From positions 1 to 22,622 of the IMG/VR virus record IMGVR_UViG_3300029319_000558: 22,622 nt of DNA. One strand, 5' to 3'. The translations under genes were made by a program, and so were the position numbers. Shown in pieces: positions 7,002 to 22,622 of this stretch (position 1 is the first letter of the stretch; the number at the start of each line of letters is the position of its first letter). The notes beneath the pieces are model-generated. The model did no database searches. It was not told the origin of the DNA and saw nothing but the letters and a program-made list of their open reading frames with translations. This stretch comes from a virus.

Positions 7002-7715
7002 ATGTATCAACTGAAAAATTACTTACTGAGCATGCAGTCGCATTGGATGATTAACCATACGACATATAAGGCTGTCCAGGACACTTTGCCAGATATAGTA
7101 AAGTTCAAAGGTCAGCAGGGTATGGAGGATATGGGCAAAACTCCGATACACAAAGTTATAAAAAAGATACATCCAGAAATATACCGGGTGCCTTTATTTC
7201 GCCGCAAATTTTGTTCTATGTTAATTAAAGAAATAGAACACATGAAAAAAGAAATACCATTTGAGGCCAATACAGATGAGGACCAGCTGCGCCAAATACC
7301 AGAGATTGTATTGCGTGAACATGTCCCAGAGTTATATCGCAGCATGTGGTTTGTGGTACAAAGCGTACTTAATCCTATGTTCAATGCGATATGGCAAAGA
7401 GATTGTAAAGATCCGTCAACAATACAAATAGCTAACTATAATTTGCGAGATAAAAAACAAGGTGCCTGGCACCATGACGAAAGCGCTGATATTTCGGTGG
7501 TTGTGCCGCTCAATACTGGTAAGTATAAAGGCGGTGGCACCGCGTTTCACAACTACGGCGAAATAAGTCCGTTGCCAACGGGACATGCGCTAATCTTCCC
7601 AAGTTTCATCAATCTGCATAAGGGCCTGCCGGTCGAAAGCGGTGATAGATACCTGTTGGTTTTTTGGCTACATGATCGTCAAAGAATCATAGAATTGTAC
7701 GAAAACTACCTCTAA
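7002..7715 (+). CDS. 2OG-Fe(II) oxygenase (prolyl-hydroxylase-like), divergent unit
   Basis: This 237-residue protein has the C-terminal double-stranded beta-helix of 2-oxoglutarate/Fe(II) dioxygenases. The first iron motif is H157-H-D159 (AWHHDESADISVVVPLN), then GGGT (177-180), the distal iron ligand H206 (INLHKGLPV) and the likely 2OG-binding R216 (SGDRYLLVFW). The N-terminal about 140 residues are helical and unassigned. The fold couples 2OG decarboxylation to hydroxylation of a protein, peptide or small molecule; the substrate cannot be read. ATG 7002 has no Shine-Dalgarno and sits at the predicted transcription start; ATG 7032 is an alternative. It is unrelated in detail to the other two 2OG oxygenases here. 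Confidence 0.85.
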   Translation: MYQLKNYLLSMQSHWMINHTTYKAVQDTLPDIVKFKGQQGMEDMGKTPIHKVIKKIHPEIYRVPLFRRKFCSMLIKEIEHMKKEIPFEANTDEDQLRQIPEIVLREHVPELYRSMWFVVQSVLNPMFNAIWQRDCKDPSTIQIANYNLRDKKQGAWHHDESADISVVVPLNTGKYKGGGTAFHNYGEISPLPTGHALIFPSFINLHKGLPVESGDRYLLVFWLHDRQRIIELYENYL

Positions 7716-7744
7716 AAATAACTGTTATTATTGTCTGTAAATAG

Positions 7745-7773
7745 TTGCATATAGTTGCAACTTATGGCATTAT
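7745..7773 (+). promoter_or_regulatory. Candidate promoter for the 7819-8313 pair
   Basis: TTGCAT (7745-7750), a 17-base spacer and CATTAT (7768-7773) resemble a sigma-70 promoter. A second TTGCAA lies at 7755-7760, giving GTTGCATATAGTTGCAAC, which could also be an operator. The -10 match is moderate (4 of 6). Confidence 0.35.
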
Positions 7774-8314: not shown

Positions 8315-9091
8315 TCAATAAAGATCTGATAACTCTACAGTCTGGATTCCTTCCAAGTTGTAGGGTTTAAAATCATCATTATCTTTACATCTAAGTAATA
8401 GATCCAACGCTTGCTCATTCCTTTGGCGTGCATACACCAGCGCTTCATCTGATAAGGTATAGATCACATAAGGATATGGATGTTGCTTTTCTTGTGCTAA
8501 AAAGTTAAAACCTTTAGCAGTCAAACCTAGCTCTCTACAAGCGTCAACATAGAGTGCTGCTTGCATGTGATAGTTGAAGCTATTGATTGCGCCTCTAAAG
8601 CCACGAGGCGAAGCGTCACGGCATGTTTTAAGATCCCATACATATTCATTGTCATACCAATCCATACGACACTTAAAAGGATGGCCGTGCCATTCAAAGA
8701 CCAGAGTGTGCTCTACCTTATCGGTTTCTTTGGGTATGTAGTTTTTGACTACCTCCCGGCGTTCCATACAAACGTCATACAAGTCTTGAGTAATAGCTGT
8801 ACGATTACCAATGGTTTCCATAAAGTTTGCATATTCTTCTTTGCCGGATTTAGTTCTGCGGTCAAACTTTGGCTGAATTACAAACTCTTCACCAAACTTA
8901 TGGTGTTCTAAAAATACAGTGTGTTGCACTCGGCCCTCAAGTAGAGCTGGTGTTTGCACAATATCTTTTTTATTCTTCCAGCTGTACGGGCATTTGATGA
9001 CCGAAGTTAGATCGTGAGATCTAAAGGCTGGTATCTCTGCATACACTTCATAGGGTATGTCGTCATATATTCCTGGTTTAAACTCCTGCAT
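8315..9091 (-). CDS. PD-(D/E)XK nuclease, RecB/exonuclease VIII-like
   Basis: This 258-residue protein shows the RecB-type nuclease series: G53xxxH57 (EGRVQHTVF), an acidic strand around CRMDWY (D144), the metal site D153-L-K155 (VWDLKT) and the Q177xxxY181 motif (MQAALY). That order matches the Exo8-like PDDEXK family (DUF3799) of phages, which resect double-strand ends to give 3' tails for recombination. The SSB-like protein first in the same leftward operon would coat those tails. Its start overlaps the upstream oxygenase gene by 14 bases. No annealing protein of the RecT/Erf/Beta type is seen in the window. Confidence 0.85.
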   Translation of the reverse strand: MQEFKPGIYDDIPYEVYAEIPAFRSHDLTSVIKCPYSWKNKKDIVQTPALLEGRVQHTVFLEHHKFGEEFVIQPKFDRRTKSGKEEYANFMETIGNRTAITQDLYDVCMERREVVKNYIPKETDKVEHTLVFEWHGHPFKCRMDWYDNEYVWDLKTCRDASPRGFRGAINSFNYHMQAALYVDACRELGLTAKGFNFLAQEKQHPYPYVIYTLSDEALVYARQRNEQALDLLLRCKDNDDFKPYNLEGIQTVELSDLY

Positions 9092-9803
9092 TTTTTTTCA
9101 TCTCCTCTATTTCTTCTGGTGTTAAGTTAAAACAATTAAGATTGCCAGCAACAGTTCTGCGCTCTCCCTCACCAAAAAAAGGATAGACACAATGTTGCAT
9201 CCATGAAGGGAACAACAACAGCTTGCCGGGTTCTGGTTTGATGTATCGTGATTGAGAAGGACGCAAGCGTTCCGGATCTCCAATCTGATTTAAACCATAA
9301 GTAAAATTTATAAATCCATCTATAGAGCCAGAGCTTCTGTAAAGGTCATACCTTTTTTCAGCATCTTCATCTGGTCTGTGGATTTGTTCTGGAACTAAAG
9401 TCCAGGTAGTAAAAGATAATCCCATGTTGGATGCAGTTATATGATCGTGGATGGGATTATAGTCACCCTCAAAACTATGAACTGACCACAGCTTATCTAT
9501 ACTTATTTTCTTCGGCTGGAGAGGAGATTTGGTTAGCTCGACGAAATGTTTTAGATAAGCCATGCCCAGGTTCTCAACGATACTTACGAAAGGGAGTAGG
9601 CTCTGATCTGTGAAATCCATTTTTAATTGTTCGCCGTTATGTATCTGACCAACCAAAGTGTCAGATGCAGACTCACGTTTATCATTAGATCTCAAAGCAT
9701 CAAGATACTCGTTGAGAGTCGTCACTACCTCGGAGGGTAATTGGTGCTGCAACATAATTGCAGCTGGCAGAGAAAAAACTTGGTACTCAATTTGGTTACT
9801 CAT
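9078..9803 (-). CDS. 2OG-Fe(II) oxygenase, TIGR02466-like
   Basis: This 241-residue protein resembles the phage/cyanobacterial putative 2OG-Fe(II) oxygenase family TIGR02466. Features are SIDKLWSVHS leading to NPIHDH (H119-D-H121, the first iron motif with His where most families have Asp), the strand LLLFPSWMQHCVYPF with distal H204, and E-R-R at 214-216 as likely 2OG anchor. Between them lies an insert of about 50 residues (DEDAEKRYDLYRSS). The substrate is unknown. It sits inside a replication/recombination operon, overlapping both neighbours, so its expression is tied to DNA metabolism. The H-x-H arrangement is normal for this family as far as I recall. Confidence 0.8.
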   Translation of the reverse strand: MSNQIEYQVFSLPAAIMLQHQLPSEVVTTLNEYLDALRSNDKRESASDTLVGQIHNGEQLKMDFTDQSLLPFVSIVENLGMAYLKHFVELTKSPLQPKKISIDKLWSVHSFEGDYNPIHDHITASNMGLSFTTWTLVPEQIHRPDEDAEKRYDLYRSSGSIDGFINFTYGLNQIGDPERLRPSQSRYIKPEPGKLLLFPSWMQHCVYPFFGEGERRTVAGNLNCFNLTPEEIEEMKKNAGV

Positions 9804-13711: not shown

Positions 13712-14513
13712 GAAAGTAAAACAAGTAATAGGTAATAGTACGTTGTATTGTGCTGATTGTGATGCGGTGGTGCGGAGTTTATTAGACAACTCTATAGATA
13801 TTGTTGTTAGTAGTCCGCCCTACAATATTGGCAGAGAGTATGGTTTGTATCAAGATAGAAAAATTAATTATCTTGAGTGGCAGATAAATTTATGGAACGA
13901 GGTTTGCAAAAAAATGTCTGATACGGGCCATGTATTTTTAAATATACAGCCATCAAGAAAAAATCCGCTATGGTGCTATGAGTTAGTATCTGCGTTAGAT
14001 TGGACAATACAAAACACTTTTATTTGGAATAAGAGAATTGAAATAGATGGATATGTGCGGGGACAAGGTACTACATCACAAAGCAAAAAATATATATGCA
14101 ATGGTTGGGAGTATGTTTTTCATTTAACAAAAAAAGGTAAAACAGAAATATCACAAAAGCAAAGCGGTGTTAGTTACCACCCAAAATGGGCAGAAGAAAA
14201 CGCAAAACGCTTTGGCAAAACTTGGAGGCCTACTGTAAATTCTTGGCATATACCTTACGAAACAATAGGACATGGAAAAATTAGTAAAGATAAAATGAAA
14301 AGCAATCACCCTGCAATATTTCCTAAAAAACTTGTAGAAAAGTGTATTAAAGTCACTGGCATTAAAAAGGGCCTAATACTAGATCCGTTTGTTGGAACAG
14401 GAACAACTTGTATTGTTGCAGATCAAATGGGTTTTGAATCAATCGGCATAGACATAAACTCTGATTATATAGCTTTTGCATTAAAGAAATTACAGGAGAA
14501 GGTCGATGATTGA
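13704..14513 (+). CDS. Beta-class DNA methyltransferase (N4-cytosine or N6-adenine)
   Basis: The ATG overlaps the previous stop by 8 bases. The 269-residue protein has the catalytic motif SPPY at 37-40 (VVSSPPYNIG) near the N-terminus and the SAM-binding motif DPFVGTGTT (227-235), followed by GIDIN, near the C-terminus. This order defines the beta class. SPPY is commoner in N4-cytosine enzymes, but N6-adenine activity cannot be excluded. The target-recognition region would be about 60-200. It is paired with the MT-A70 enzyme, shares its AT-rich composition, and has no restriction partner. Confidence 0.88.
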   Translation: MIEKVKQVIGNSTLYCADCDAVVRSLLDNSIDIVVSSPPYNIGREYGLYQDRKINYLEWQINLWNEVCKKMSDTGHVFLNIQPSRKNPLWCYELVSALDWTIQNTFIWNKRIEIDGYVRGQGTTSQSKKYICNGWEYVFHLTKKGKTEISQKQSGVSYHPKWAEENAKRFGKTWRPTVNSWHIPYETIGHGKISKDKMKSNHPAIFPKKLVEKCIKVTGIKKGLILDPFVGTGTTCIVADQMGFESIGIDINSDYIAFALKKLQEKVDD

Positions 14514-14604
14514 CCTAGTGCTTGGAGTGTTAGGTACACTGTTTGGAATGATTGCAGCGAGCGTTCTCTTATTCATGCTGTATATAATATTTGATAAAGA
14601 TTAG
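14506..14604 (+). CDS. 32-residue single-span membrane protein
   Basis: A short frame starts at ATG 14506, overlapping the methyltransferase stop, with AGGAG 8 bases upstream. It encodes MIDLVLGVLGTLFGMIAASV followed by LLFMLYIIFDKD: nearly the whole protein is one hydrophobic helix of about 25 residues with a charged C-terminus. The good ribosome site and the coherent membrane segment support a real gene despite its size. It could be a small membrane toxin, a lysis accessory or a superinfection factor; nothing visible decides this. No endolysin is adjacent, so a holin role is only a weak guess. Confidence 0.55.
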   Translation: MIDLVLGVLGTLFGMIAASVLLFMLYIIFDKD

Positions 14605-14629
14605 CAGATATATGCAAAGGTTTATAATA

Positions 14630-14665
14630 AAAGGGTATAGCAAAGGGTATAGTAAAGGGTATGCT
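14630..14665 (+). repeat. Three tandem 12-base iteron-like repeats
   Basis: AAAGGGTATAGC (14630-14641), AAAGGGTATAGT (14642-14653) and AAAGGGTATGCT (14654-14665) are directly adjacent. A dispersed AGGGTAT core recurs at 14775-14781. The units are about one helical turn and precede the small terminase gene by 180 bases. They could bind the small terminase (packaging site), an initiator (origin) or a regulator. Confidence 0.7.
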
Positions 14666-14700
14666 GAAATGCTGTATCTATGGGGGTTTAAGCTACTATT

Positions 14701-14814
14701 AGTGTATAGTGTATCTATATATAAAGATATTATTATTTAGTGGTTATAAGATGGTATTCTTATGGGTTACAAATAGGGTATTTAGAAATGGTTATACACT
14801 GCCCTCTATACACT
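14701..14814. repeat. Heptamer AGTGTAT/ATACACT inverted repeats and hairpin
   Basis: AGTGTAT occurs twice in tandem (14701-14714) and its complement ATACACT twice (14794-14800, 14808-14814), so two pairs face each other across about 80 bases. Between them is a perfect dyad ATAAGA-TGGTAT-TCTTAT (14746-14763). TGGTTATA is repeated at 14741 and 14789. TGATACAAT (14822-14830), an extended -10, lies just beyond and could start the terminase mRNA. The non-coding region is 14605-14844; no other gene is seen in it. Confidence 0.5.
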
Positions 14815-14844
14815 GGTTGAATGATACAATGTTAGGAAGACATT

Positions 14845-15351
14845 ATGCCAAAGAAGATTAAGAAAAAACCAATCGCCGATGCGCCATTGCAATTTGACAA
14901 AGATGAGGAGCACGGCTTAACCGAAATGCAGGCCAGCTTTGTTTGGCATTACACCGAAGGTGCGTGCGGTATGACGGAGGCAGCCAGAAAAGCTGGGTAT
15001 GAGTTTCCAAGTCAGTCGGCGAATAAATTATTGAACGGCAAAGATTATCCGAATGTGGTTAAAGCCATTCGGATCAAACAAGATGAGCTCGCAGAAAAAT
15101 ATGCAATCACTCCACAAAAGACAGGCACGATGTTGTGGAAAGTTATGGAGAGTGCATACGAAAGCGGGCAGTTCAATGCAGCGGTCAGTGCCATCAAAGA
15201 GCTGAATCAACTCGCTGGTTTATCAATCAATAGATCTCAGAATATAAACATTAATGCCAACTTGGAGAAGATGAGCAGGGAGCAAATCAAAGAAAGATTA
15301 GGACAGCTGCTCGGTGCTGAAACCTCAAACTACTCTGCAAAAGATAAATAG
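14845..15351 (+). CDS. terS: Terminase small subunit
   Basis: This 168-residue protein begins with a Lys-rich tail, then LTEMQASFVWHYTEGACGMT and EAARKAGYEF, a helix-turn-helix typical of small terminases that bind the packaging site. A central helical part follows (YAITPQKTGTMLWKVMESAY), with SAIKELNQLAGLS and a final helix LEKMSREQIKERLGQLL that may contact the large subunit. Partner and role: recognition of phage DNA for the packaging motor. AGGAAG precedes the ATG. The large terminase is not next to it, and none is recognised in the window, which is unusual; it may lie outside. The tandem repeats upstream are a candidate binding site. Confidence 0.8.
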   Translation: MPKKIKKKPIADAPLQFDKDEEHGLTEMQASFVWHYTEGACGMTEAARKAGYEFPSQSANKLLNGKDYPNVVKAIRIKQDELAEKYAITPQKTGTMLWKVMESAYESGQFNAAVSAIKELNQLAGLSINRSQNININANLEKMSREQIKERLGQLLGAETSNYSAKDK

Positions 15352-15721
15352 ATAAATAACTTGCAAATGGCCGTCTGCCGTCCAGGAGCAAAAATTTTTT
15401 GATTTTTTTAAAAAATGCCGTAAGTTATTGATTTTGCGTGCTTTTTTTAGTGTGCAATCCTGTATTCTTTTGTGCAACTATGTGCAACTTGTGAGCACAA
15501 TAGTAACGCGTAACAAATTGGAGTCCCTAGAGGCCGCTTTTTTACTGGCATTTGGTTTTTTTAGGATCCCTACACCCCCATATTTGCCAACGCGTATGCA
15601 AGTGCGTATAGAACTAAGTTAGACACACTAAATCACAAAAAAAACTCAAGGCAAAAAAATTTTGTGAAAAAAATTTTGCAATGCGTTTGCAATTTTTTGC
15701 ATATTTTGAGAAACTCTATCA
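15352..15721. other. 370-base non-coding region with repeated TGTGCAA/TTGCAA elements
   Basis: No convincing gene is present. Visible elements are: a small G+C-rich tandem GCCGTCTGCCGTCC (15370-15383) followed by A/T runs; TGTGCAA at 15451, 15471 and 15481 (spacing 20 and 10, on one helix face); the palindrome TTGTGAGCACAA (15489-15500); GCGTAT at 15592 and 15604; and TTGCAA at 15361, 15676 and 15687, with TTGCAT at 15697. It could be a control region, origin or cohesive/packaging site. A promoter for the gene at 15722 probably lies here, but no pair of boxes has good spacing. Confidence 0.5.
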
Positions 15722-16141
15722 ATGCCGATTAACTCCAGAAATAAAGGCGCAGCATTTGAACGTGACATTGCAAAGATCCTCAATGGTTTTTTTGCCGACA
15801 ACGACATCGATTTCCAGACCAAACGCAACCTAGACCAATACCAACAAAAAGATCTATGCGATTTGGATATACCCTTTCATGCGGTTGAGTGCAAATTCTA
15901 CAAAGAAGGCGAATGGTTAAAGTCCGCCTGGTGGGATCAAGTTTGCAGTGCCAGTAATGGCAAGATTCCTGTATTGATATTTAAGTTCAACCGCAGACCG
16001 ATTCGTGTTTGCATACCCTTGTATGCGATTAACCTAGAGTGGCCGCACGAAAACGACAAAATCTGTGTCATGGCGATAGATGATTGGCTTGATACGCTAA
16101 AAAATAACTGGCAGAACTATGAGCGACAATATTCTACCTAA
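15722..16141 (+). CDS. PD-(D/E)XK endonuclease, Holliday-junction-resolvase-like
   Basis: This 139-residue protein opens with NSRNKGAAFERDIAKIL, the conserved Gly/Glu helix of small archaeal-type resolvases and related phage nucleases (E13). The region DLCDLDIPFHAVECKFYKEG follows, with an Asp before E56-C-K58, the metal-binding core. Such phage enzymes cut branched DNA before packaging or during recombination. The size suits this group. It overlaps the next gene by 23 bases. The ATG has no strong Shine-Dalgarno. A VRR-NUC-type nuclease is the main alternative. Confidence 0.7.
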   Translation: MPINSRNKGAAFERDIAKILNGFFADNDIDFQTKRNLDQYQQKDLCDLDIPFHAVECKFYKEGEWLKSAWWDQVCSASNGKIPVLIFKFNRRPIRVCIPLYAINLEWPHENDKICVMAIDDWLDTLKNNWQNYERQYST

Positions 16142-16673
16142 TCACGGCGTAACTGGTCTGTCTGTCAGCCAAGATGATGTAGAACTGTTCTTAGATTATG
16201 TAGTTGAAGCCGAGGGAATTGTGGCCAAAGTGCACGATAAAGGCGATGAAATCGAGCAAACAACTGTCCGGGACGCTACTATTTATTATATTGATGAAAA
16301 ACAGACGCGTTTGTATCAAATTTTGAACAAAATTGCCTTTTCAGCCAATAAATACTTCAAATATGACATTACTGGAATAGAAAAAGCGCAGATAATTCAC
16401 TATAAAGCGCCATCTAACGGCTATGAATACCATTTGGACATAGGACCAGAGGGTACAGCTGCTACACGCAAGATCAGTATGAGCCTTTTGCTAAACGAAG
16501 ACTACGAAGGCGGCGAAATTTGCTTCCGTTCCAGCGAAAATGAAAGCTGTACGCGGCCAAAGATGGGTGAAGTGGTAGCATTTAGCTCGTTTTTGTCACA
16601 TAAAGTCAAACCTGTGACCAAAGGCGACAGATATGTAGTTGTTGCTTGGTTTAACGGACCGCCGTTTCGTTAG
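16119..16673 (+). CDS. 2OG-Fe(II) oxygenase, P4H/PKHD-like
   Basis: This 184-residue protein is the shortest of three 2OG oxygenases here. Motifs: H105-L-D107 (YEYHLDIGP), the strand ISMSLLLNEDYEGGEICF, distal H161 (FLSHKVKPV) and R171 (KGDRYVVVAWF). This is the standard prolyl-4-hydroxylase-type core, close to the PKHD/PiuC-like phage enzymes. The substrate is unknown. The ATG lies inside the nuclease gene (23-base overlap), implying coupled translation. The end overlaps the convergent minus-strand gene by 23 bases. Confidence 0.85.
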   Translation: MSDNILPNHGVTGLSVSQDDVELFLDYVVEAEGIVAKVHDKGDEIEQTTVRDATIYYIDEKQTRLYQILNKIAFSANKYFKYDITGIEKAQIIHYKAPSNGYEYHLDIGPEGTAATRKISMSLLLNEDYEGGEICFRSSENESCTRPKMGEVVAFSSFLSHKVKPVTKGDRYVVVAWFNGPPFR

Positions 16674-16929
16674 GATCCTTATTATCCTGGTTTTTTTCTA
16701 GGATTTCTTTTTTTCTAGCCTTAAAATCTGCAATTAATTTATCGTAATGCTTGGGACTCATACGTCGCATAGTTGCTACAGCTTTTTTGTTGTCCCGGTA
16801 ATGATTTTCTAGGCTTTCTACTGTATTGGTCGGCATAAAATGAAACATGGCTAAGTAAATGCTTTCTGCAAAGTCAAATTTCTTTTTACTCTCTGGATCC
16901 CAGAAAGGAACGGGTGGTATTTGTGGCAT
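16651..16929 (-). CDS. Small hypothetical protein, last gene of leftward micro-operon
   Basis: This 92-residue protein was not recognised. The N-terminus is Pro-rich (MPQIPPVPFWDPE), the middle helical with aromatic residues (FAESIYLAMFHFMP), and the C-terminus highly charged (KARKKEILEKNQDNK). ATG is 2 bases after the previous stop without a clear Shine-Dalgarno, implying coupled translation. Its tail overlaps the convergent oxygenase gene by 23 bases. Confidence 0.55.
   Translation of the reverse strand: MPQIPPVPFWDPESKKKFDFAESIYLAMFHFMPTNTVESLENHYRDNKKAVATMRRMSPKHYDKLIADFKARKKEILEKNQDNKDPNETAVR
16672..16697 (+). terminator. Weak candidate terminator after the 2OG oxygenase
   Basis: AGGAT (16672-16676) and ATCCT (16684-16688) can pair, followed by GG and seven T bases. 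The stem is only 5 pairs and lies within the antisense gene, so this is weak. Confidence 0.25.
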
Positions 16930-16931
16930 AA

Positions 16932-17102
16932 CTAATTCCAGATAGGAAAGTCAAAGCCTTGTTTTACGAGGTCGTTATAGATTCTTTCACCTTCTTCTTT
17001 TGAATACGGCTCAAGTTGATCTTTGCGACGCTCACTAGAATTTTCTGTGTACCAATCTTGGAAAGTCGGCACATAGATTTCTTTTTCAGCTCCCTTTCTC
17101 AT
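16932..17102 (-). CDS. 56-residue hypothetical protein
   Basis: I set the start at ATG 17102 because GGAGG (read leftward, 17109-17113) lies 6 bases before it; the upstream in-frame ATG at 17120 would place that site inside the gene. The product is acidic/basic mixed and helical (KEEGERIYNDLVKQGFDFPIW), with no known motif. It overlaps the end of the upstream 57-residue gene by 17 bases. Confidence 0.55.
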   Translation of the reverse strand: MRKGAEKEIYVPTFQDWYTENSSERRKDQLEPYSKEEGERIYNDLVKQGFDFPIWN

Positions 17103-17259
17103 AAGTTTCCTCCAAATCATCTTCGTTTACAAAACTTACCTGGTTAGTTTCTTCGTCTAGGAATCTAACCTTACCCTCATCATTATAGCCATAAAAATAT
17201 CCGAATATAGCATGACCTAATAATTTTACACGTTGGCCGTGTTCAAGATTTGCTTTCAT
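17086..17259 (-). CDS. 57-residue protein, small SH3-like barrel
   Basis: A frame of 57 codons starts at ATG 17259 with the ideal site AAGGAGGAG just upstream. It encodes MKANLEHGQRVKLLGHAIFG, then a Tyr/Gly-rich turn, VRFLDEETNQVSF and an acidic helix. The pattern (G.RV..L......G...GYN..G.V.FLDE....SFV...DL) looks like a small KOW/SH3-type barrel, as in the 8083-8313 protein. It overlaps both neighbours. It is easy to miss because of its length. Confidence 0.55.
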   Translation of the reverse strand: MKANLEHGQRVKLLGHAIFGYFYGYNDEGKVRFLDEETNQVSFVNEDDLEETYEKGS

Positions 17260-17476
17260 CTCTCCTCCTTTTATATTCTTTGATTAATATTTCTGCCTCC
17301 CGATTACAGTTATCTGCAAGTTCATTAAGTGCATCAATCTCTTTTAGGATCTGGTCTTTTTCTAACAAGTTGGTCACATTCGGTAGCTGATCTTCTAAAT
17401 CTTCTATCTGCCTGGTGCAAAGGTCCCGAAAACGACTAGCCACATCTTCTAAATGAATGACGTTATCTTTACTCAT
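17243..17476 (-). CDS. Small coiled-coil hypothetical protein
   Basis: I choose ATG 17476 (77 residues), which shares its A with the TGA of the preceding gene (ATGA), over GTG 17488. The product is almost entirely charged helix with heptad-like Leu/Ile spacing (RQIEDLEDQLPNVTNLLEKD and ILKEIDALNELADNC), ending in a basic tail EYKRRRDESKS. It probably forms a coiled-coil dimer; the partner is unknown. The stop overlaps the next start by 17 bases. Confidence 0.55.
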   Translation of the reverse strand: MSKDNVIHLEDVASRFRDLCTRQIEDLEDQLPNVTNLLEKDQILKEIDALNELADNCNREAEILIKEYKRRRDESKS

Positions 17477-17649
17477 CAATGCAACCACTTAGGCAAGCCG
17501 TTCGGATATTTAAACGCCAGCTTGAATTGTTGTAGATCTTTAGGATCAGTAATAATGTTTTCCATAATATCGATTATAGAATCATTGTCTGTAAATTTAT
17601 ATTTAGCCTTTAGCTTTGGCATTACCTGGTCAAAGTATTTAAACTTCAT
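17476..17649 (-). CDS. 57-residue hypothetical protein
   Basis: ATG 17649 overlaps the TGA of the RHH gene as ATGA and has AAGGAGGAG just upstream. The 57-codon product begins MKFKYFDQVMPKLKAKYKFT, continues with an acidic helix (DSIIDIMENI) and ends LAFKYPNGLPKWLH. It is not a family I know. Coupling at both ends with ATGA overlaps is strong support that it is translated. It may be an antitoxin-like or anti-host partner of the RHH protein, but that is speculation. Confidence 0.6.
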   Translation of the reverse strand: MKFKYFDQVMPKLKAKYKFTDNDSIIDIMENIITDPKDLQQFKLAFKYPNGLPKWLH

Positions 17650-17819
17650 AACTCCTCCTTAATAGACTTGTAACATTCTTGAATCATTTTTTTGAGCAGC
17701 TGGCCTGTGCCAACGCCATAATGTTTTTTCACAGCGGTCAACATCTTTTTGGTATTTGGATCTATTCTAAACTGAATAGTCGCTGTGTTTGGTTTCGATA
17801 TATCAAATTCTAATTTCAT
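17646..17819 (-). CDS. Small ribbon-helix-helix DNA-binding protein
   Basis: I choose ATG 17819, which has GGAGG (17824-17828 read leftward) 4 bases away; the longer frame would run into the promoter. The 57-residue product is MKLEFDISKPNTATIQFRID followed by two helices (TKKMLTAVKKHYG and GQLLKKMIQECYKSI). A short strand then two helices is the ribbon-helix-helix layout of Arc/CopG repressors. It heads six overlapping minus-strand genes and faces the 17931 gene across a divergent promoter, so autoregulation is likely. Confidence 0.6.
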   Translation of the reverse strand: MKLEFDISKPNTATIQFRIDPNTKKMLTAVKKHYGVGTGQLLKKMIQECYKSIKEEL

Positions 17820-17844
17820 AGGTCCTCCGAAATAATTCAAGACA

Positions 17845-17873
17845 AGAATACTATAAGTTATAAATAGTTGCAA
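17845..17873 (-). promoter_or_regulatory. Leftward promoter of the micro-operon
   Basis: Read leftward, TTGCAA (17868-17873), 17 bases, TATTCT (17845-17850). The start would be near 17838, giving a leader of about 18 bases that contains the RHH gene's Shine-Dalgarno. The -35 box is a perfect palindrome shared with the opposite promoter. Confidence 0.6.
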
Positions 17874-17895
17874 ATATTTGTGCATTTGTTATTAT
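17868..17895 (+). promoter_or_regulatory. Rightward promoter sharing the same -35 box
   Basis: The same TTGCAA (17868-17873), read rightward, is followed by 16 bases and TATTAT (17890-17895). It would drive the 17931-20226 genes. Both polymerases could not bind at once. Confidence 0.5.
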
Positions 17896-17930
17896 TGTCT
17901 TGTGAGTAACAAATTTAATAAGGAGGTTCT

Positions 17931-18185
17931 ATGTTATTTGTAGGTGATTGGCTTGGTTTGGAAGATGGACACGATTTTTGGTCAGATGAAAAGCTGGCCT
18001 TGTGGTATGACAGGGCCAGGAAGAGAGTGAGAGATAACATTGACTATGTTAGAAAGTATGGCTGGGACGATACCTTTGTTAAAAATGGATGTAACTGTCC
18101 GACCAGAGCTCTGGAAACTCTTAACGAATTTAGAAGAGAGATCAAGAGAAGAAGAAACTATAACGTGTATTTTGGAATCAAATAA
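17931..18185 (+). CDS. Small hypothetical protein
   Basis: The Shine-Dalgarno AAGGAGG sits 4 bases before the ATG. The 84-residue product is rich in Asp, Trp and Arg (FVGDWLGLEDGHDFWSDEKL), then helical and basic (REIKRRRNYNVYFGIK), with a Cys pair in NGCNCPTR. I recognise no family. It is first in a rightward operon with the cytosine methyltransferase, 9 bases apart, each gene having a strong ribosome site. Confidence 0.6.
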   Translation: MLFVGDWLGLEDGHDFWSDEKLALWYDRARKRVRDNIDYVRKYGWDDTFVKNGCNCPTRALETLNEFRREIKRRRNYNVYFGIK

Positions 18186-18194
18186 GGAGGCAGC

Positions 18195-18857
18195 ATGAAA
18201 ATATTAATAGCTTGTGAAACCAGCGGCATAGTTCGTGAGGCGTTTCTTGCTTCTGGCCATGATGCTTGGTCGTGTGACATCTTAAAATCAGATGTAGCCA
18301 CAAACAGACATATCCAGGACGACGTTAGAAATGTTTTAGCAATGGATGACTGGGATATGTTGATGGTTGCACATCCGCCATGCACTAGACTTTGTTTGTC
18401 TGGAGCCAGGTGGTATAAGGTGCCACCACCAGGTAAGACATTAGAACAAATGGAACAAGAACTAATAGATGGTTGTCAGCTGTTGTCTGATCTTTGGAAC
18501 GCAGATGTACCAAAAATCGCTATCGAGAATCCAGTAATGTTATCCAAAGCAAGAAAAAAAATCCAAGAAATATCTGATAGAGAGTTTCCCTGGAATCCTA
18601 CACAATATGTTCAACCCTACGAATTTGCAGAAAGTATAGATGCAGAAGACAACATAACAAAAAAAACAAGTCTTTGGCTAAAGAACCTGCCGCCACTAAT
18701 ACCGACAGGAACGCTAACAAAAGAAACAGCCAGGGACGATATACACAAAGCACCCCCTGGACCAGACAGATGGAAAATAAGAAGTAAGTTTCATCACGGC
18801 ATGGCCAAAGCCATGGCAGAACAATGGGGTGGCAATTTAATTAAGGAGGTAGCATGA
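18195..18857 (+). CDS. C5-cytosine DNA methyltransferase (Dcm-like, short form)
   Basis: This 220-residue protein starts with the SAM-binding motif ILIACETSGIVREAF, then has catalytic HPPC (60-63, HPPCTRLCLSG) and the ENP motif (111-113, variant of ENV). This is the C5-cytosine methyltransferase series, compressed; the target-recognition region after 120 is short compared with 300-400-residue enzymes. Such short forms are frequent in phages. Product: 5-methylcytosine at an unknown site, or an altered cytosine substrate. Shine-Dalgarno AAGGAGG is present, and the stop overlaps the next ATG (ATGA). Confidence 0.8.
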   Translation: MKILIACETSGIVREAFLASGHDAWSCDILKSDVATNRHIQDDVRNVLAMDDWDMLMVAHPPCTRLCLSGARWYKVPPPGKTLEQMEQELIDGCQLLSDLWNADVPKIAIENPVMLSKARKKIQEISDREFPWNPTQYVQPYEFAESIDAEDNITKKTSLWLKNLPPLIPTGTLTKETARDDIHKAPPGPDRWKIRSKFHHGMAKAMAEQWGGNLIKEVA

Positions 18858-19441
18858 AAACAATCCCGGTTACATTGCAGCTTGCTAAAATCTTTTACAG
18901 CGAGTTTCATAAAACCAACAAACCACCAGTAGGCCACAAGAAAAGTTATGTGGCCTTACTTGGTGACGAGTGGACTAAGTGCATAATGGTTGATCCGATA
19001 GATCTACCAGAAGCCTGGTTGAAAGACGAACACGAGGATCTAAGGGTTAGGTACGACGATGCTGGCGATTGGTATTTATACACCAGAGGACAGATAGTTG
19101 GTATCTGCACAATCGGCAGGCCCGTAGCTAGGTGGACAGATCCTAAAGTATATGAGTTTACTAGGATATGTTTTGAGTTCAATCCCAAAACTAACAAAGA
19201 AAAAAAGTATTACAGCAAGTTTATTAGACAAGCCATGTCCGATTTTCAGCTGTACCACCAGGTATCTAAATTTGTGACTTACATACACGATTACCAAAGC
19301 GGCAGATATTTAGAATACGCTGGATTCAAAAAAGATAAGCACATCAAATACAGTGCAAACAACAAAGGCTGGGCAACCAGGCCCAACAGATCACATTCAG
19401 ATTTAAAACCAAAACTAAGATTTATTAAGGAGGCAGCATGA
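18854..19441 (+). CDS. GNAT-like protein of the XF1762/Mom type
   Basis: This 195-residue protein has NKPPVGHKKS (22-31), VGICTIGRPVAR (82-93), EFTRICF (101-107), a helix with YYSKFIRQA and FVTYIHDYQSGRYLEYAGF (140-158). The order matches the XF1762 family of GNAT-fold proteins and recalls phage Mu Mom, which adds a group to adenine N6 in DNA. Whether it acts on DNA is inferred from its ATGA overlap with a cytosine methyltransferase. It also overlaps the recombinase start by ATGA. Alternative: acetylation of a protein or small molecule. Confidence 0.65.
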   Translation: MKTIPVTLQLAKIFYSEFHKTNKPPVGHKKSYVALLGDEWTKCIMVDPIDLPEAWLKDEHEDLRVRYDDAGDWYLYTRGQIVGICTIGRPVARWTDPKVYEFTRICFEFNPKTNKEKKYYSKFIRQAMSDFQLYHQVSKFVTYIHDYQSGRYLEYAGFKKDKHIKYSANNKGWATRPNRSHSDLKPKLRFIKEAA

Positions 19442-20226
19442 TTGAACCAAGAAAACAAGTAAACAATATCTACGGCTATATCAGAGTATCATCTGAGCAG
19501 CAGGTTAAAGACGGATCTTCACTTGAGGAGCAAAAGAAGTCGATTGAGGAGTTTGTTGCTAACAAATACGGCGGCAGGAAAGTTGACAAGTTCTTTACCG
19601 ACGCTGGCATTAGTGGCATGAAGCCATTGCTTGATAGGCCAGGCTCTAGAGAGCTGACTGACACTATGGACGCTAACGATGTGATAGTAGCAACCAAGTT
19701 AGATAGGCTTGCGAGATCTTTTTTAGAAATGGTCAACATGATTCCTGCCCTAGAAGATACAGGTATCACACTCTACTTCTGCGATATGTTTGCAGATATA
19801 CCAGTGGTTTTGCCCAGGCAAAAAGAACAAACGGGCCTAGCAGCAAAAATGGATATGACCAGAATAGCTAACCAAAATCTAGTGACCAATATGGCGCAGT
19901 TTGCTGAGATAGAAAGAGAAATGATTATGTCTAGGCTCAACGGCGGCAAGTTAGTCTATGCGGAAAAAGGTTACTCGATCGGTGGCAAGACACCTTTTGG
20001 CTATAGAAAAGAATACGACGAATCTGGTAGCAGAAGAAGAACTAAGCTAGTGCCAGTTCCAGAGGAGCAAGCGGTTCTTAAACACATCAAAGCGCTTAGA
20101 GAGAAAGGTTTGGGTGCTAGAAAGATAGCTACGCAGATACAAAATTCACATCCAGGCTATGAGGACTTTCCGTATCACAAAGTTCAGAGGATTCTTATGA
20201 GAAAGTTCCAAGGCCTTCACGATTAG
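19438..20226 (+). CDS. Serine recombinase (resolvase/invertase-like)
   Basis: The start overlaps the preceding TGA (ATGA) and has AAGGAGG upstream. In 262 residues it shows YIRVSS (14-19, catalytic Ser probably S18), GISG at 57-60, KLDRLARS (87-94) and AEIEREMIMSRLNGG (156-170): the full resolvase catalytic domain. A stretch about 121-148 (ADIPVVLPRQKEQ) is longer than usual. The first part of a Recombinase domain follows (GKTPFGYRKEY, GARKIATQI). It lacks the C-terminal zinc ribbon and coiled coil of large integrases, so inversion or resolution is likelier than integration. No crossover site or invertible segment was recognised nearby. Confidence 0.85.
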   Translation: MIEPRKQVNNIYGYIRVSSEQQVKDGSSLEEQKKSIEEFVANKYGGRKVDKFFTDAGISGMKPLLDRPGSRELTDTMDANDVIVATKLDRLARSFLEMVNMIPALEDTGITLYFCDMFADIPVVLPRQKEQTGLAAKMDMTRIANQNLVTNMAQFAEIEREMIMSRLNGGKLVYAEKGYSIGGKTPFGYRKEYDESGSRRRTKLVPVPEEQAVLKHIKALREKGLGARKIATQIQNSHPGYEDFPYHKVQRILMRKFQGLHD

Positions 20227-20245
20227 AAATCTTTAGAGTTTCAGT

Positions 20246-20251
20246 TATAAT
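20246..20251 (+). promoter_or_regulatory. Consensus -10 box directly before the kinase-toxin-like gene
   Basis: TATAAT lies 6 bases before ATG 20258, with no Shine-Dalgarno; the mRNA would start at or next to the ATG. At the standard spacing the -35 (TTAGAA, 20223-20228) is weak. Confidence 0.45.
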
Positions 20252-20257
20252 CATAAA

Positions 20258-21532
20258 ATGCGCGACATCAACGACATAAACATATTTGACAGAGCTATGT
20301 CCTTTGAGGATATAAATGACATCTTGTTGACAGCTCCTCGAACAGATATATCTCAATACATAAAACCCGATGACAGAGATTTTCTAGACAAAAGCATAGA
20401 AGAATACGAAGCAAACGTACCTTTGCTCACGCAAATAGGCGTAGGCTTTACTCCACCAGGTATGGCCATAGATGTTGCAGCTGCCGGTAAGTACGGCCGC
20501 GATGCTTTTAGAGATTTTGGCGAAGGCGAAATAGGTGAGGGGTTCAAAAATCTTGGTATCGCAGGATTATCTGGTCTTGCTGCGATTCCGCTAGTTGGTG
20601 AGCTTGCAGCTCTAGCCAAGCAACCAGTAAAAGCAACTCTAAAAGCGCCTGGAGGTATTAGGTCTTTGGACGAAGACATGTTAGATCTGCAAAAAATATT
20701 AGATGATCCAAAACTCTCTAATGCAGACAAAGCTAAACAAATAGAAAATCATCCAGCTATAGTCAAAGCTGAAAAGAAAATGAACGACATTATACCAACA
20801 GAACAAATGCCTGGATATGGCACTCCGGAGTGGGCAGCCAATAGACAATTTAATTTTGCTGGCAAAGATGTTGTTGGATATTCAGCTGCCGCAGATGAGC
20901 TTTATCAAGGCGGCAGATCTTTAGCCTATATTGAACAGGGATTAGAAGTTCCAGCAAATGTTATGGCAAAAAACTCTGGTAAAAAAATTGCTACTATAGT
21001 TATCGGTCCACCAGCAGCAGGAAAAAGTGCAATTTCAAACCCGCTTGCAATTAAATATAACGCCACGATTATAGATCCAGACGAAGCAAAAAAAGTTCTT
21101 CCAGAGTTTCAAGGGGGTGTAGGTGGCAATGCTGTACATGCAGAGTCACAAGCAATAATCAACGATGTTGCTGAAATCGCAATGCAAAGAGGTGATAATT
21201 TATTATTTCCAACTGTAGGAGGCAACCCGCAAAAAATTAGAAACAAAATAAACATTCTAAAAGACAATGGTTATGAGGTAAATTTGGTTTTAACAGACCT
21301 AGATCCAGATTTAGCCATGGTAAGGATGAACCAAAGGTTCATCAAAAAAGGACGTTTGATAAATTCCGATGCAGCAAATAACTATAAAGGAAAACCAAAC
21401 AAAACGTATGATATATTAAAAAAGGAGGGTATAGCAGATGGTTATGGAAAAATCGACACAACCACAAGGATTGGCGAGCCTAAAACAATCTTCGACGACA
21501 CCGCAGAAATCTTCAAAGACACTAATCTTTGA
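20258..21532 (+). CDS. Zeta-toxin-like P-loop kinase with virion/pre-toxin-like N-terminus
   Basis: This 424-residue protein has two parts. Residues about 240-424 resemble a zeta-type kinase: Walker A GPPAAGKS (250-257), IIDPDEAKKVLPEF (271-284, acidic catalytic candidates D273/D275), NAVHAESQAI (291-300) and the arginine-rich VRMNQRFIKKGRL. Zeta enzymes phosphorylate UDP-N-acetylglucosamine-type sugars and block cell-wall synthesis. Residues about 1-130 are acidic, then Gly/Ala hydrophobic (GFTPPGMAIDVAAAGKYGRD and LAAIPLVGEL), like pre-toxin segments or ejected virion proteins. Both ends of the gene are intact. No epsilon antitoxin is recognised, but the small gene overlapping its end is a candidate. 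It may be an injected effector or an early anti-host kinase. Function is inferred. Confidence 0.7.
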   Translation: MRDINDINIFDRAMSFEDINDILLTAPRTDISQYIKPDDRDFLDKSIEEYEANVPLLTQIGVGFTPPGMAIDVAAAGKYGRDAFRDFGEGEIGEGFKNLGIAGLSGLAAIPLVGELAALAKQPVKATLKAPGGIRSLDEDMLDLQKILDDPKLSNADKAKQIENHPAIVKAEKKMNDIIPTEQMPGYGTPEWAANRQFNFAGKDVVGYSAAADELYQGGRSLAYIEQGLEVPANVMAKNSGKKIATIVIGPPAAGKSAISNPLAIKYNATIIDPDEAKKVLPEFQGGVGGNAVHAESQAIINDVAEIAMQRGDNLLFPTVGGNPQKIRNKINILKDNGYEVNLVLTDLDPDLAMVRMNQRFIKKGRLINSDAANNYKGKPNKTYDILKKEGIADGYGKIDTTTRIGEPKTIFDDTAEIFKDTNL

Positions 21533-21623
21533 TTACGATGCAGCCGAAGACAGAGGCGAAGCTATGGCAAAAACAGCTGTGCACCGACAGGTAGTGCAAG
21601 ATGTATTAAAAAAATATGACTAA
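21438..21623 (+). CDS. 61-residue protein overlapping the kinase gene end
   Basis: The start ATG 21438 has AAGGAGGG 9 bases upstream and lies 95 bases inside the kinase gene in another frame. The product is polar, Gln/Ser/Lys-rich at first (MEKSTQPQGLASLKQSSTTP), then LIFDYDAAEDRGEAMAKTAV and a basic helix to QDVLKKYD. I recognise no family. The strong ribosome site and the end outside the overlap support it. An antitoxin role is conceivable from position alone. Confidence 0.5.
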   Translation: MVMEKSTQPQGLASLKQSSTTPQKSSKTLIFDYDAAEDRGEAMAKTAVHRQVVQDVLKKYD

Positions 21624-21753
21624 CAAAGAAAAAATCATAGCGGCTATAGCAAAAATAGACTCGATGCTGAGTTTAGACTTTATGACGGATCCTGTAAGGG
21701 AGGAGCTCAATAATGTCAAAACCTTGCTAGTAGAAGTCCGCGACAGTATGTAA
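21616..21753 (+). CDS. 45-residue hypothetical protein
   Basis: The ATG overlaps the stop of the previous gene by 8 bases; the stop TAA overlaps the next ATG by one base (TAATG). The product MTNKEKIIAAIAKIDSMLSL continues as an acidic amphipathic helix (REELNNVKTLLVEVRDSM). No family is recognised. It tiles exactly between two genes, supporting real translation. The Shine-Dalgarno is poor, so it is probably coupled. Confidence 0.45.
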   Translation: MTNKEKIIAAIAKIDSMLSLDFMTDPVREELNNVKTLLVEVRDSM

Positions 21754-22337
21754 TGGCCAACATTAACGGCTGGGGTAGAGGCACCTGGGGACAAGGCGCT
21801 TGGGGTACAGCTCTACCGGTAGAATTATCTAGTGTTGGATCAATAACCTCTGGTCTTGGCAGCGTAACTGTTGTTGCTAAAGCTAACGTAGTTCCAGCCA
21901 CTCAAGTTATAACCTCTGGACTAGGAACAACTAGCGTTATTGCAGCAGCGATTGTCCAGGTCACAGGCCAAGCAATTACATCTGGCTTGGGAGCTCCGGG
22001 AGTAGTTGCAAAAGCTAATGTAACGCCAGCTACACAAAGTATCACGTCAGCCATTGGATCGGTAATTGTTCACGAAAACGAGGTCATAAATCTAACTGGC
22101 TTTGATGTAGCTGCAAATTTAGGCACACCAACCATAGATGCTGGAGCTATAGTTAGCATTACAGGTCTAAGCGTAACAGCGAGTGCAGGCTTTATTATGG
22201 TGTACGGAGAGATAGATACTGACCAAACTCCAAGCTATGCAGAGGTGAGTACCACACAAACACCTAGCTACTCAGAGGTTGCGACAAGTCAAACTCCAAA
22301 CTATACTGTTATAGACGCTGGCAGAGATGCAGCATGA
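21753..22337 (+). CDS. Repeat-rich tail adaptor/fibre-associated protein
   Basis: This 194-residue protein starts MANINGWGRGTWGQGAWGT, a Gly/Trp pattern typical of a marine phage protein found just before tail fibre genes. Residues about 25-110 hold three or four copies of a beta repeat with TSGLG or TSAIG and Val/Ala strands. Residues about 150-190 hold three 11-residue repeats built on QTPSYAEV, QTPSYSEV and QTPNYTVI. The repeats suggest an elongated beta structure on the tail. TAATG overlap with the upstream gene implies coupling. Molecular role is inferred. Confidence 0.65.
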   Translation: MANINGWGRGTWGQGAWGTALPVELSSVGSITSGLGSVTVVAKANVVPATQVITSGLGTTSVIAAAIVQVTGQAITSGLGAPGVVAKANVTPATQSITSAIGSVIVHENEVINLTGFDVAANLGTPTIDAGAIVSITGLSVTASAGFIMVYGEIDTDQTPSYAEVSTTQTPSYSEVATSQTPNYTVIDAGRDAA

Positions 22338-22357
22338 TACATAAGAGGACATAAATA

Positions 22358-22622
22358 ATGGCAACGTATGTAAACGATTTAAGACTGAAAGAGATAGGCA
22401 CTGGAGAATCCAGTGGTACCTGGGGATCTGAAACAAATACCAATTTAGAATTAATCGGTGAAGCGCTTGGCTTTGGCACGGAGGCCATAACCACTAACGC
22501 CGATACACACACCACAACTGTAGCCGATGGATCGACTGATCCAGGTAGAGCTATGTATATCAAATACACAGGTGCTTTAGATTCTAACTGTACGATTACG
22601 ATTGCACCGAACACCATGAGTA
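22358..22622 (+). CDS. Tail fibre protein, N-terminal part (cut off by window end)
   Basis: The ATG is preceded by AGAGGA at 10 bases. The frame is open to the window end (88 codons visible). The N-terminus MATYVNDLRLKEIGTGESSG, then TWGSETNTNLELIGEAL, is a common start of tail fibre proteins in marine phages (a segment attaching the fibre to the tail). The C-terminal, host-binding part lies outside the window. It follows the repeat-rich adaptor, completing the tail module. Confidence 0.7.
   Translation, partial: MATYVNDLRLKEIGTGESSGTWGSETNTNLELIGEALGFGTEAITTNADTHTTTVADGSTDPGRAMYIKYTGALDSNCTITIAPNTMS

Follow-up and report, generated by a model that had tools for sequence, protein, structure and literature searches.

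The subject of this analysis is a divergent promoter-like element in the IMG/VR virus record IMGVR_UViG_3300029319_000558, a stretch of 22,622 bases (with no completeness estimate attached) that was analysed at its full length and is called the window below. The element lies between an operon of six small genes on the minus strand, named A to F, and a block of genes on the plus strand. Our reading, to which we give a probability of about 60%, is that the six genes are one version, within a group of uncultured phages, of a pair of accessory-gene operons under one divergent promoter, with exchangeable cargo. A divergent sigma-70-type promoter would express the operon, with a single palindromic TTGCAA acting as the -35 hexamer for both directions, and this promoter element would stay in place while the small genes on each side are gained, lost and reordered. 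A preliminary description of this DNA had drawn attention to the six genes themselves; the constant two-way promoter-like element with its changing cargo is more interesting than the six genes alone. In the naming used here, "left cargo" in the window denotes the plus-strand genes from 17931 on, and the leftward -10 is the one on the minus strand.

The element (17838..17914, about 75 bp) sits inside the 111 bases that separate gene A from the divergent gene at 17931, and is composed of TGTTACTCAC, the motif ACAATARTAAC and the palindromic hexamer TTGCAA at 17868..17873, the candidate -35 common to both divergent promoters. TATTCT at 17845..17850 on the minus strand is the candidate leftward -10, with a 17-bp spacer, and TATTAT at 17890..17895 on the plus strand is the candidate rightward extended -10, with a 16-bp spacer and TGT before it. 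Relatives of the element were collected with a pattern scan of IMG/VR, which gave 29 stretches, and with protein searches using C and A, which added more; after removal of duplicates, and with the window counted in, there were 39 distinct element sites. All 36 distinct 125-nt versions of the element (28 distinct in the 73-nt core) carry TAnnnT at a distance of 17 bases from TTGCAA leftward and of 16 bases rightward, the rightward one being preceded by TGn. A putative -35 and -10 at the 16-18 bp distance expected of a sigma-70-type promoter is thus conserved on both strands in 36/36 versions. The column consensus reads tTGTTAcTCACaatACAATAaTAACAaat..acaaAtAtTTGCAACTaTTTaTaA..t.tagTATa.T. The -10s flank TTGCAA, an arrangement different from divergent starts 7-25 bp apart over a shared -10; the spacing would put about 65 bp between the divergent starts. 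With the searched bases removed, the element is more alike than the fourfold degenerate sites of core genes in 29/29 comparisons with the window (0.96 vs 0.57 identity in relative L048, 0.82 vs 0.49 in L049). This comparison covered 29 of the 39 sites, and 28 of those contigs were also found by protein searches.

The alignment of relatives shows that the element is kept where the genes differ on both sides of it. Among 19 pairs of sites with an identical 73-nt element, the first left family differs in 14, the first right family in nine, and both first families in seven; five sites that share an identical element (L040, L022, L084, L044 and L039) have between them three left and four right first-gene families. 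The 39 sites show 34 right and 34 left arrangements, a number inflated by cut contigs and by mechanical gene calls. We collected 97 cargo families; 45 recur at two sites or more, and among the 52 limited to a single site some will be false. The 45 shared families show a clear side preference, with 24 found on the right only, 20 on the left only and one on both. The family found on both sides (left in L072, right in L077) encodes proteins of 87-90 amino acids (aa) that begin MTKEIK... and are nearly identical in sequence. We therefore rejected the flipping of genes between promoter sides as a general pattern, as only 1/45 shared families does so.

Against this background of turnover, gene C is near-constant and present at 37/39 sites. 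The reverse relationship was also examined, and the element was found upstream of C (at two or fewer mismatches) in 32 of 45 C-bearing contigs. Seven of the other 13 start less than 600 nt before C, L085 has a cut-off half element at the contig start, and the element was not found in C-bearing L074, L014, L019, L020 and L021. In two of these, L014 and L020, the head region is different. In this sister group the head of the operon is a 336-aa protein instead of a ribbon-helix-helix (RHH) protein (L020:4376-5386, also in L014), and when the L020 protein was tested it matched Arm-DNA-bind_3 at 28.9 bits, with a cut-off of 27. The operon of L072 and L073 consists of C-D-E-F alone, immediately behind the element, and in some relatives a 787-aa gene that is not in the window stands between F and the 2-oxoglutarate (2OG) oxygenase gene that follows it (L036:9151-11514; no Pfam match at E 0.01).

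Several observations weigh against our reading. TTGCAA and most of the rightward -10 stood in the search pattern; neither the leftward -10 nor the constant spacings did. TTGCAA matches the E. coli -35 TTGACA at 4/6 positions, with the limitation that this consensus may not be that of the host. A plain promoter scan of 14500-22622 gave no excess of sites (15 vs 19.0 expected); it gives the rightward pair at 9/12 and does not reach the leftward pair. TAnnnT also occurs leftward at spacers 14 (25/36 versions), 12 (18/36) and 19 (17/36), and rightward at spacer 19 in 32/36, which we attribute to the AT-richness of the region; no spacers other than leftward 17 and rightward 16 occur in all 36 versions. 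Two of the 39 sites have no call of C: L119 is cut, and L044 carries other genes. Finally, homology gave no support for a function of C, B, E or F. Since the generic scan shows no excess, the case for a promoter rests on conservation and not on consensus.

It is also conceivable that the element is mainly a binding site for a regulator or a replication site, and that its promoter geometry is a by-product. Two further places, 7.72-7.76 kb and 15.47-15.51 kb, also combine the tandem motif TGCAACTAT with ACAATARTAAC, and the window holds five matches to the tandem motif (including the element itself and one inside a gene), compared to 0.29 expected. The 15.47-kb type was found in 22 distinct contexts, window included, compared to 0 matches in five 300-kb Markov sequences, and the 7.7-kb type was found again in L062. 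These recurring motifs suggest a phage-wide regulator, to which we assign no name. What speaks against this explanation is that the element has a -10 at constant spacing on both sides, whereas none was seen by eye at the 15.47-kb copy, and we regard it as improbable that binding is the main role. Both additional copies, at 15471-15510 and 7722-7761, are intergenic and have tandem TGCAACTATnTGCAAC beside ACAATARTAAC; the former, also conserved in relatives, is flanked by the gene for the terminase small subunit and the resolvase-like gene.

The operon itself consists of six minus-strand open reading frames (ORFs) in close succession, from 17819 down to 16651, as the preliminary description had reported. 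A and B overlap by 4 nt (ATGA), B and C by 1 nt (TGATG), and C and D as well as D and E by 17 nt, whereas E and F are separated by a gap of 2 nt. The junctions thus overlap or nearly touch as claimed, but a true ATGA is found at A/B only and not at several junctions. F overlaps the convergent 2OG-oxygenase gene (16119-16673, plus strand) by 23 nt, tail to tail. Frames broken by stops in close relatives, which had been named as the refuting observation, did not appear: internal stops in distinct homologous stretches number 0/38 for A, 0/14 for B, 0/41 for C, 0/11 for D, 0/14 for E and 0/23 for F. The proposed check of synonymous constraint points the same way, with ratios of nonsynonymous to synonymous substitution rates (dN/dS) of 0 to 0.27 in the rows where they could be computed. 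These were calculated against the window for up to 14 of the most similar stretches per gene, others being saturated at synonymous sites. The six ORFs are real genes, and chance reading frames were ruled out on account of this conservation and of dN/dS. They form a coherent operon that starts at the conserved divergent promoter-like element. In the window three of the products do have 57 residues, but the significance attached to this length does not hold: the families vary in length among relatives (RHH protein 57-65 aa, B 55-76, D 53-57), so that the shared value is a coincidence.

The suggestion that the cluster is undescribed holds within 50,697 phage records, Pfam and NCBIfam. In the phage records no match was obtained with the DNA of 16500-18900 or with proteins A, B, C, D and F as queries, E being covered only within the DNA query. 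None of the six products reaches a family cut-off in Pfam or NCBIfam, and in PHROGs a named match was found for A only, a weak one to a transcriptional repressor (E 7.1e-4). Sequence look-ups in PDB with A, C, D and F returned no convincing relative. A search 3' of F turned up no convincing terminator, the one candidate being a minus-strand stem of five pairs (16421-16409).

Gene A (17646..17819, minus strand) encodes a 57-aa protein and is the optional head gene of the operon. The preliminary description had called it an RHH protein, and profile support for this is weak but repeated. A matches Pfam RelB at E 2.5e-4 with 21.3 bits (cut-off 22.4) and NCBIfam RelB_DinJ with 19.4 bits (cut-off 45.65). 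Among 20 members of its family, RelB is matched by 14 and RHH_1 by nine at E<=0.1, and the PHROG 876 transcriptional repressor by ten at E<=0.01. A thus appears to be a small RHH protein. FRIDP is invariant across 20 aligned members; it would be the strand with which a dimer of the strand-helix-helix fold binds DNA. An alternative upstream start would lengthen A to 79 aa and would cross the promoter-like element, but conservation in relatives begins at the methionine at 17819, which is preceded by GGAGG. The family is widespread in viral contigs, with 50 loci; at 14 RHH loci examined closely, other genes usually run near to the RHH gene.

These features raise the question of whether A is a dedicated autorepressor in the manner of anti-CRISPR-associated (Aca) proteins, which would bind an inverted repeat at the promoter and shut off anti-defence genes, themselves under strong transcription, after entry. 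The repressor matches of half its family would be consistent with this, as would its position, since A is present at 18/39 element sites and is the first gene at 18/18 of them. Around the two -10s of the window, CAAGACAATAATA and TATTCTTGTCTTG form the arms of an inverted match of 12/13, and 0/400 shuffles were as good. However, this repeat is limited to the window's clade, where it also occurs in a relative without A (L070/L071, 11/13), and A-bearing elements of other clades have inverted-repeat scores like those of shuffles; an RHH operator in the form of a general inverted repeat was therefore dropped as general evidence. The element is present without A at 21/39 sites, and in the wider RHH family 31/40 loci have no such promoter in the 140 nt upstream. 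A could in principle be supplied from elsewhere in the genome, but this was rejected, as no A homologue was found in 12/17 records searched, which reach 56.8 kb and of which some are fragments and may be incomplete (that of L082, one of the 12, is cut inside the operon). Among the 16 records in which the element was seen, 11 have no copy of A. These results weaken the notion of an operon run by the RHH protein, and A appears to be an obvious candidate for a regulator but not a necessary one. We consider control of the Aca type unlikely.

The resemblance of A to RelB and its ATGA overlap with B could also indicate that the two form a type II toxin-antitoxin pair, with a RelB-like antitoxin, a 57-aa toxin and the remaining genes as passengers. 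However, A and B are not conserved as a pair: among the 18 sites with A, B is present at seven and another family, B2, at 11, and B occurs without A at five sites (L071, L070, L029, L075 and L046). Moreover, B matches no toxin family in PHROGs, Pfam, PADLOC or NCBIfam. We rejected this explanation, which seems to us highly improbable.

Gene B (17476..17649, minus strand, 57 aa) has no informative match, is present at 12/39 sites, and shows dN/dS of 0.10-0.21 where measurable among 14 distinct homologous stretches. Several other phages (L107, L109-L111 and L123-L125) have, beside a weak relative of D (34-38%), a relative of B that shares 59-75% identity with the B of L029, and these phages also hold a relative of A 1 to 4 kb away; perhaps all three belong to a shared pool of small genes. 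Gene C (17243..17476, minus strand, 77 aa) is predicted to form a two-helix hairpin, with helices at 3-33 and 37-76 in an AlphaFold2 model whose mean predicted local distance difference test (pLDDT) score is 87.4. A fold search with this model found nothing at E 0.001 in BFVD, and sequence matches in PDB that reach E 1.8e-5 (spike stalk) were rejected as coiled-coil artefacts, being limited to a helical stretch of 18 residues. Gene D (17086..17259, minus strand, 57 aa) had been described as barrel-like, which is supported by its AlphaFold2 model: five strands, predicted to form an SH3/KOW/Tudor-like barrel, at a mean pLDDT of 83.8. KOW and Tudor domains are among the best PDB matches in a fold search, with a best E of 5.1e-3 and none at 1e-3. 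Neither gene E (16932..17102, minus strand, 56 aa; at 12/39 sites) nor gene F (16651..16929, minus strand, 92 aa; at 24/39 sites) has an informative match, and a PADLOC match of F (E 0.0056) was set aside as it looks like chance. The F family occupies different positions in other operons.

On the plus strand, the left block begins with an 84-aa gene of no assigned family (17931..18185). It is followed by a gene for a 220-aa phage DNA methyltransferase-like protein (18195..18857; PHROG 757, E 5.4e-55; no Pfam match at E 0.01), by a gene for a 195-aa XF1762-family or Mom-like protein (18854..19441; NCBIfam NF045478 at 56.3 bits with a cut-off of 50, PHROG 1384 at E 7.2e-7), and by a gene for a 262-aa serine recombinase with a resolvase domain (19438..20226; Pfam Resolvase, E 8.9e-26), which we took to delimit the left variable block. 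Each of the last three starts at a short plus-strand sequence that we call the left start box: GGAGGCAGCATGA at 18186..18198, GGAGGTAGCATGA with one mismatch at 18845..18857, and GGAGGCAGCATGA again at 19429..19441 for the recombinase gene. A short conserved sequence containing a Shine-Dalgarno core before the starts of unrelated genes is the definition of the Start Associated Sequences known from mycobacteriophages, and such a sequence is present here. The exact left box GGAGGCAGYATGA precedes left genes from the second onwards in 20/51 distinct contexts and 16/30 families; elsewhere it is found at the first left gene in 1/30, at the recombinase in 9/18 and in right contexts in 0/180. At one mismatch or less, the box is present in 13/18 distinct contexts of the recombinase and at 0/42 starts outside the island. 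These outside starts replaced a cruder control made up of the starts of 376 ORFs with 150 aa or more, of which 30 had the left box with one mismatch at most (19 of them exactly) and two the right box (one exactly), because that set, with the island included, contains the recombinase and other left genes. Our choice of starts favours the Shine-Dalgarno core but not the CAGY after it, and among starts of the form GGAGGnnnnNTG the variable bases nnnn are CAGC or CAGT in 21/47 on the left and 0/16 on the right; no start of this form was found among the outside starts. A second box, GGAGAAASAAAATG, occurs at one mismatch or less in 14/180 right, 0/81 left and 1/18 recombinase contexts, and is not present in the window.

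At 24/39 sites a recombinase that begins in the same way stands to the left of the element, and this, together with the start box that it shares with the left cargo, would fit a cassette system in which the recombinase at the left border moves genes at the element or at the start boxes. Its best NCBIfam match is the cassette chromosome recombinase CcrB (E 2.7e-16), at 59.3 of 900 bits and thus far below the cut-off, and a 17-nt inverted match of 88% connects the element (17901-17917) with the Mom-like gene (19267-19283), which may be chance. On the other hand, the CcrB model, at 542, is about twice as long as the 262-aa recombinase, and no clear attachment-like repeat pair was seen among the repeats listed for 15300-22622, which covered 20 of the 34 direct and 25 of the 31 inverted families. 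Related sites also often differ by single genes, on both sides. Movement of cassettes by this enzyme is therefore very unlikely in our view.

In our preferred reading of an operon pair with exchangeable cargo, the element would be an expression platform and, we infer, a stretch of homology at which recombination swaps cargo, since the phage encodes an exonuclease VIII-like protein (PHROG 412, E 2e-58) and a Holliday-junction-resolvase-like protein (PHROG 244, E 1.4e-17). Phage recombinases have been discussed as a cause of mosaicism (PMC2327257, PMC3945230). C would be the resident gene, A an optional promoter-proximal regulator, and the other genes would be interchangeable, probably with host-interaction or anti-restriction functions. 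The whole would be a two-sided accessory-gene platform, transcribed early and probably serving host interaction. An anti-host or anti-defence role of the cargo, which the preliminary description had raised, is plausible by analogy, because the cargo turns over fast and includes a cytosine-C5 DNA methylase family, with products of 431-589 aa (Pfam check on one member), as right cargo at 9/39 sites, and because of the parallel with archaeal viruses (PMC11065993) discussed below. None of the six products has a convincing defence-family match in PADLOC, which holds models of defence and not of anti-defence, and no anti-defence relative was seen among them in Pfam, PHROGs and NCBIfam, none of which is dedicated to anti-defence.

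If, as considered tentatively below, the platform is of an undescribed kind, new anti-defence or host-takeover proteins could be found by the dozen in uncultured bacterial phages with the element as bait, in the way that conserved promoters were used in archaeal viruses. Many small phage genes are without an assigned role, and a constant element provides a testable rule for collecting them, namely that genes behind the element are accessory cargo under one control. If the cargo is indeed anti-defence, the 97 families would be a screening list.

The gene content of the window, from profile and protein searches, includes a primase-helicase, the exonuclease VIII-like protein and a terminase small subunit, and one protein shares 28% identity, across 42% of its own length, with the putative injection protein of Rhizobium phage RHph_Y1_10. 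This suggests a tailed phage, perhaps a short-tailed one. Genome contigs were searched for the host with C and the terminase small subunit as queries, which found no relatives, and Rfam and tRNA scans of the window returned nothing. Three 2OG-Fe(II) oxygenase-like genes are present within its 22.6 kb (7002-7715, 9078-9803 and 16119-16673).

The system has features in common with several known ones. Lambdoid-phage morons are extra genes with their own promoter, inserted between genes of the other direction, and the likeness lies in extra genes with a promoter-like element of their own; the operon pair described here differs in being multi-gene and two-sided, in combining a constant promoter with changing genes, and in that no convincing terminator of its own was found. 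Aca-controlled anti-CRISPR operons, on which PMC9410881 reports, likewise have a small DNA-binding protein among small genes of no assigned function, whereas here the candidate regulator is optional, of the RHH type and first in the operon. The libraries searched, which include no dedicated Acr collection, showed no relative of an anti-CRISPR (Acr) or Aca protein. In Cluster K mycobacteriophages, the Start Associated Sequences are 13-bp GGGATAGGAGCCC sequences (PMC3203893), and the likeness is that of a short asymmetric sequence containing a ribosome-binding site just upstream of unrelated non-structural genes. The sequence here is a different one and does not match this 13-bp sequence as given there; moreover, it marks the left block, and the right block has another, rarer box. 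In archaeal viruses, early anti-defence regulons have been described in which a conserved regulatory sequence with a promoter precedes diverse accessory genes (Bhoobalan-Chitty 2024, PMC11065993). Several genes per genome carry the sequence there and two inhibitors were validated, and the resemblance is that of a conserved promoter sequence before many unrelated accessory genes of no assigned function. In contrast, the two operons described here would share a single divergent element, and they belong to presumed phages of bacteria known from sequence alone. Among the results listed in our searches of the open-access literature, we saw no phage operon with a divergent promoter built on a shared -35. 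That the shared -35, the two opposed operons with their own repertoires and start tags, and the resident two-helix protein together represent an undescribed kind of two-sided phage platform is a possibility that we put forward tentatively and with some doubt. The closest comparison for the promoter itself is with bidirectional bacterial promoters, of which the class described has a shared -10 and starts 7-25 bp apart, most often 18 (PMC12825309, PMC10268837). Both would have divergent transcription from one symmetric core, but in the element described here it is the -35 that would be shared, with starts, judged by the spacing, about 65 bp apart, and the use of one -35 for two promoters, which differs from the shared -10 class as those reports present it, is directly testable.

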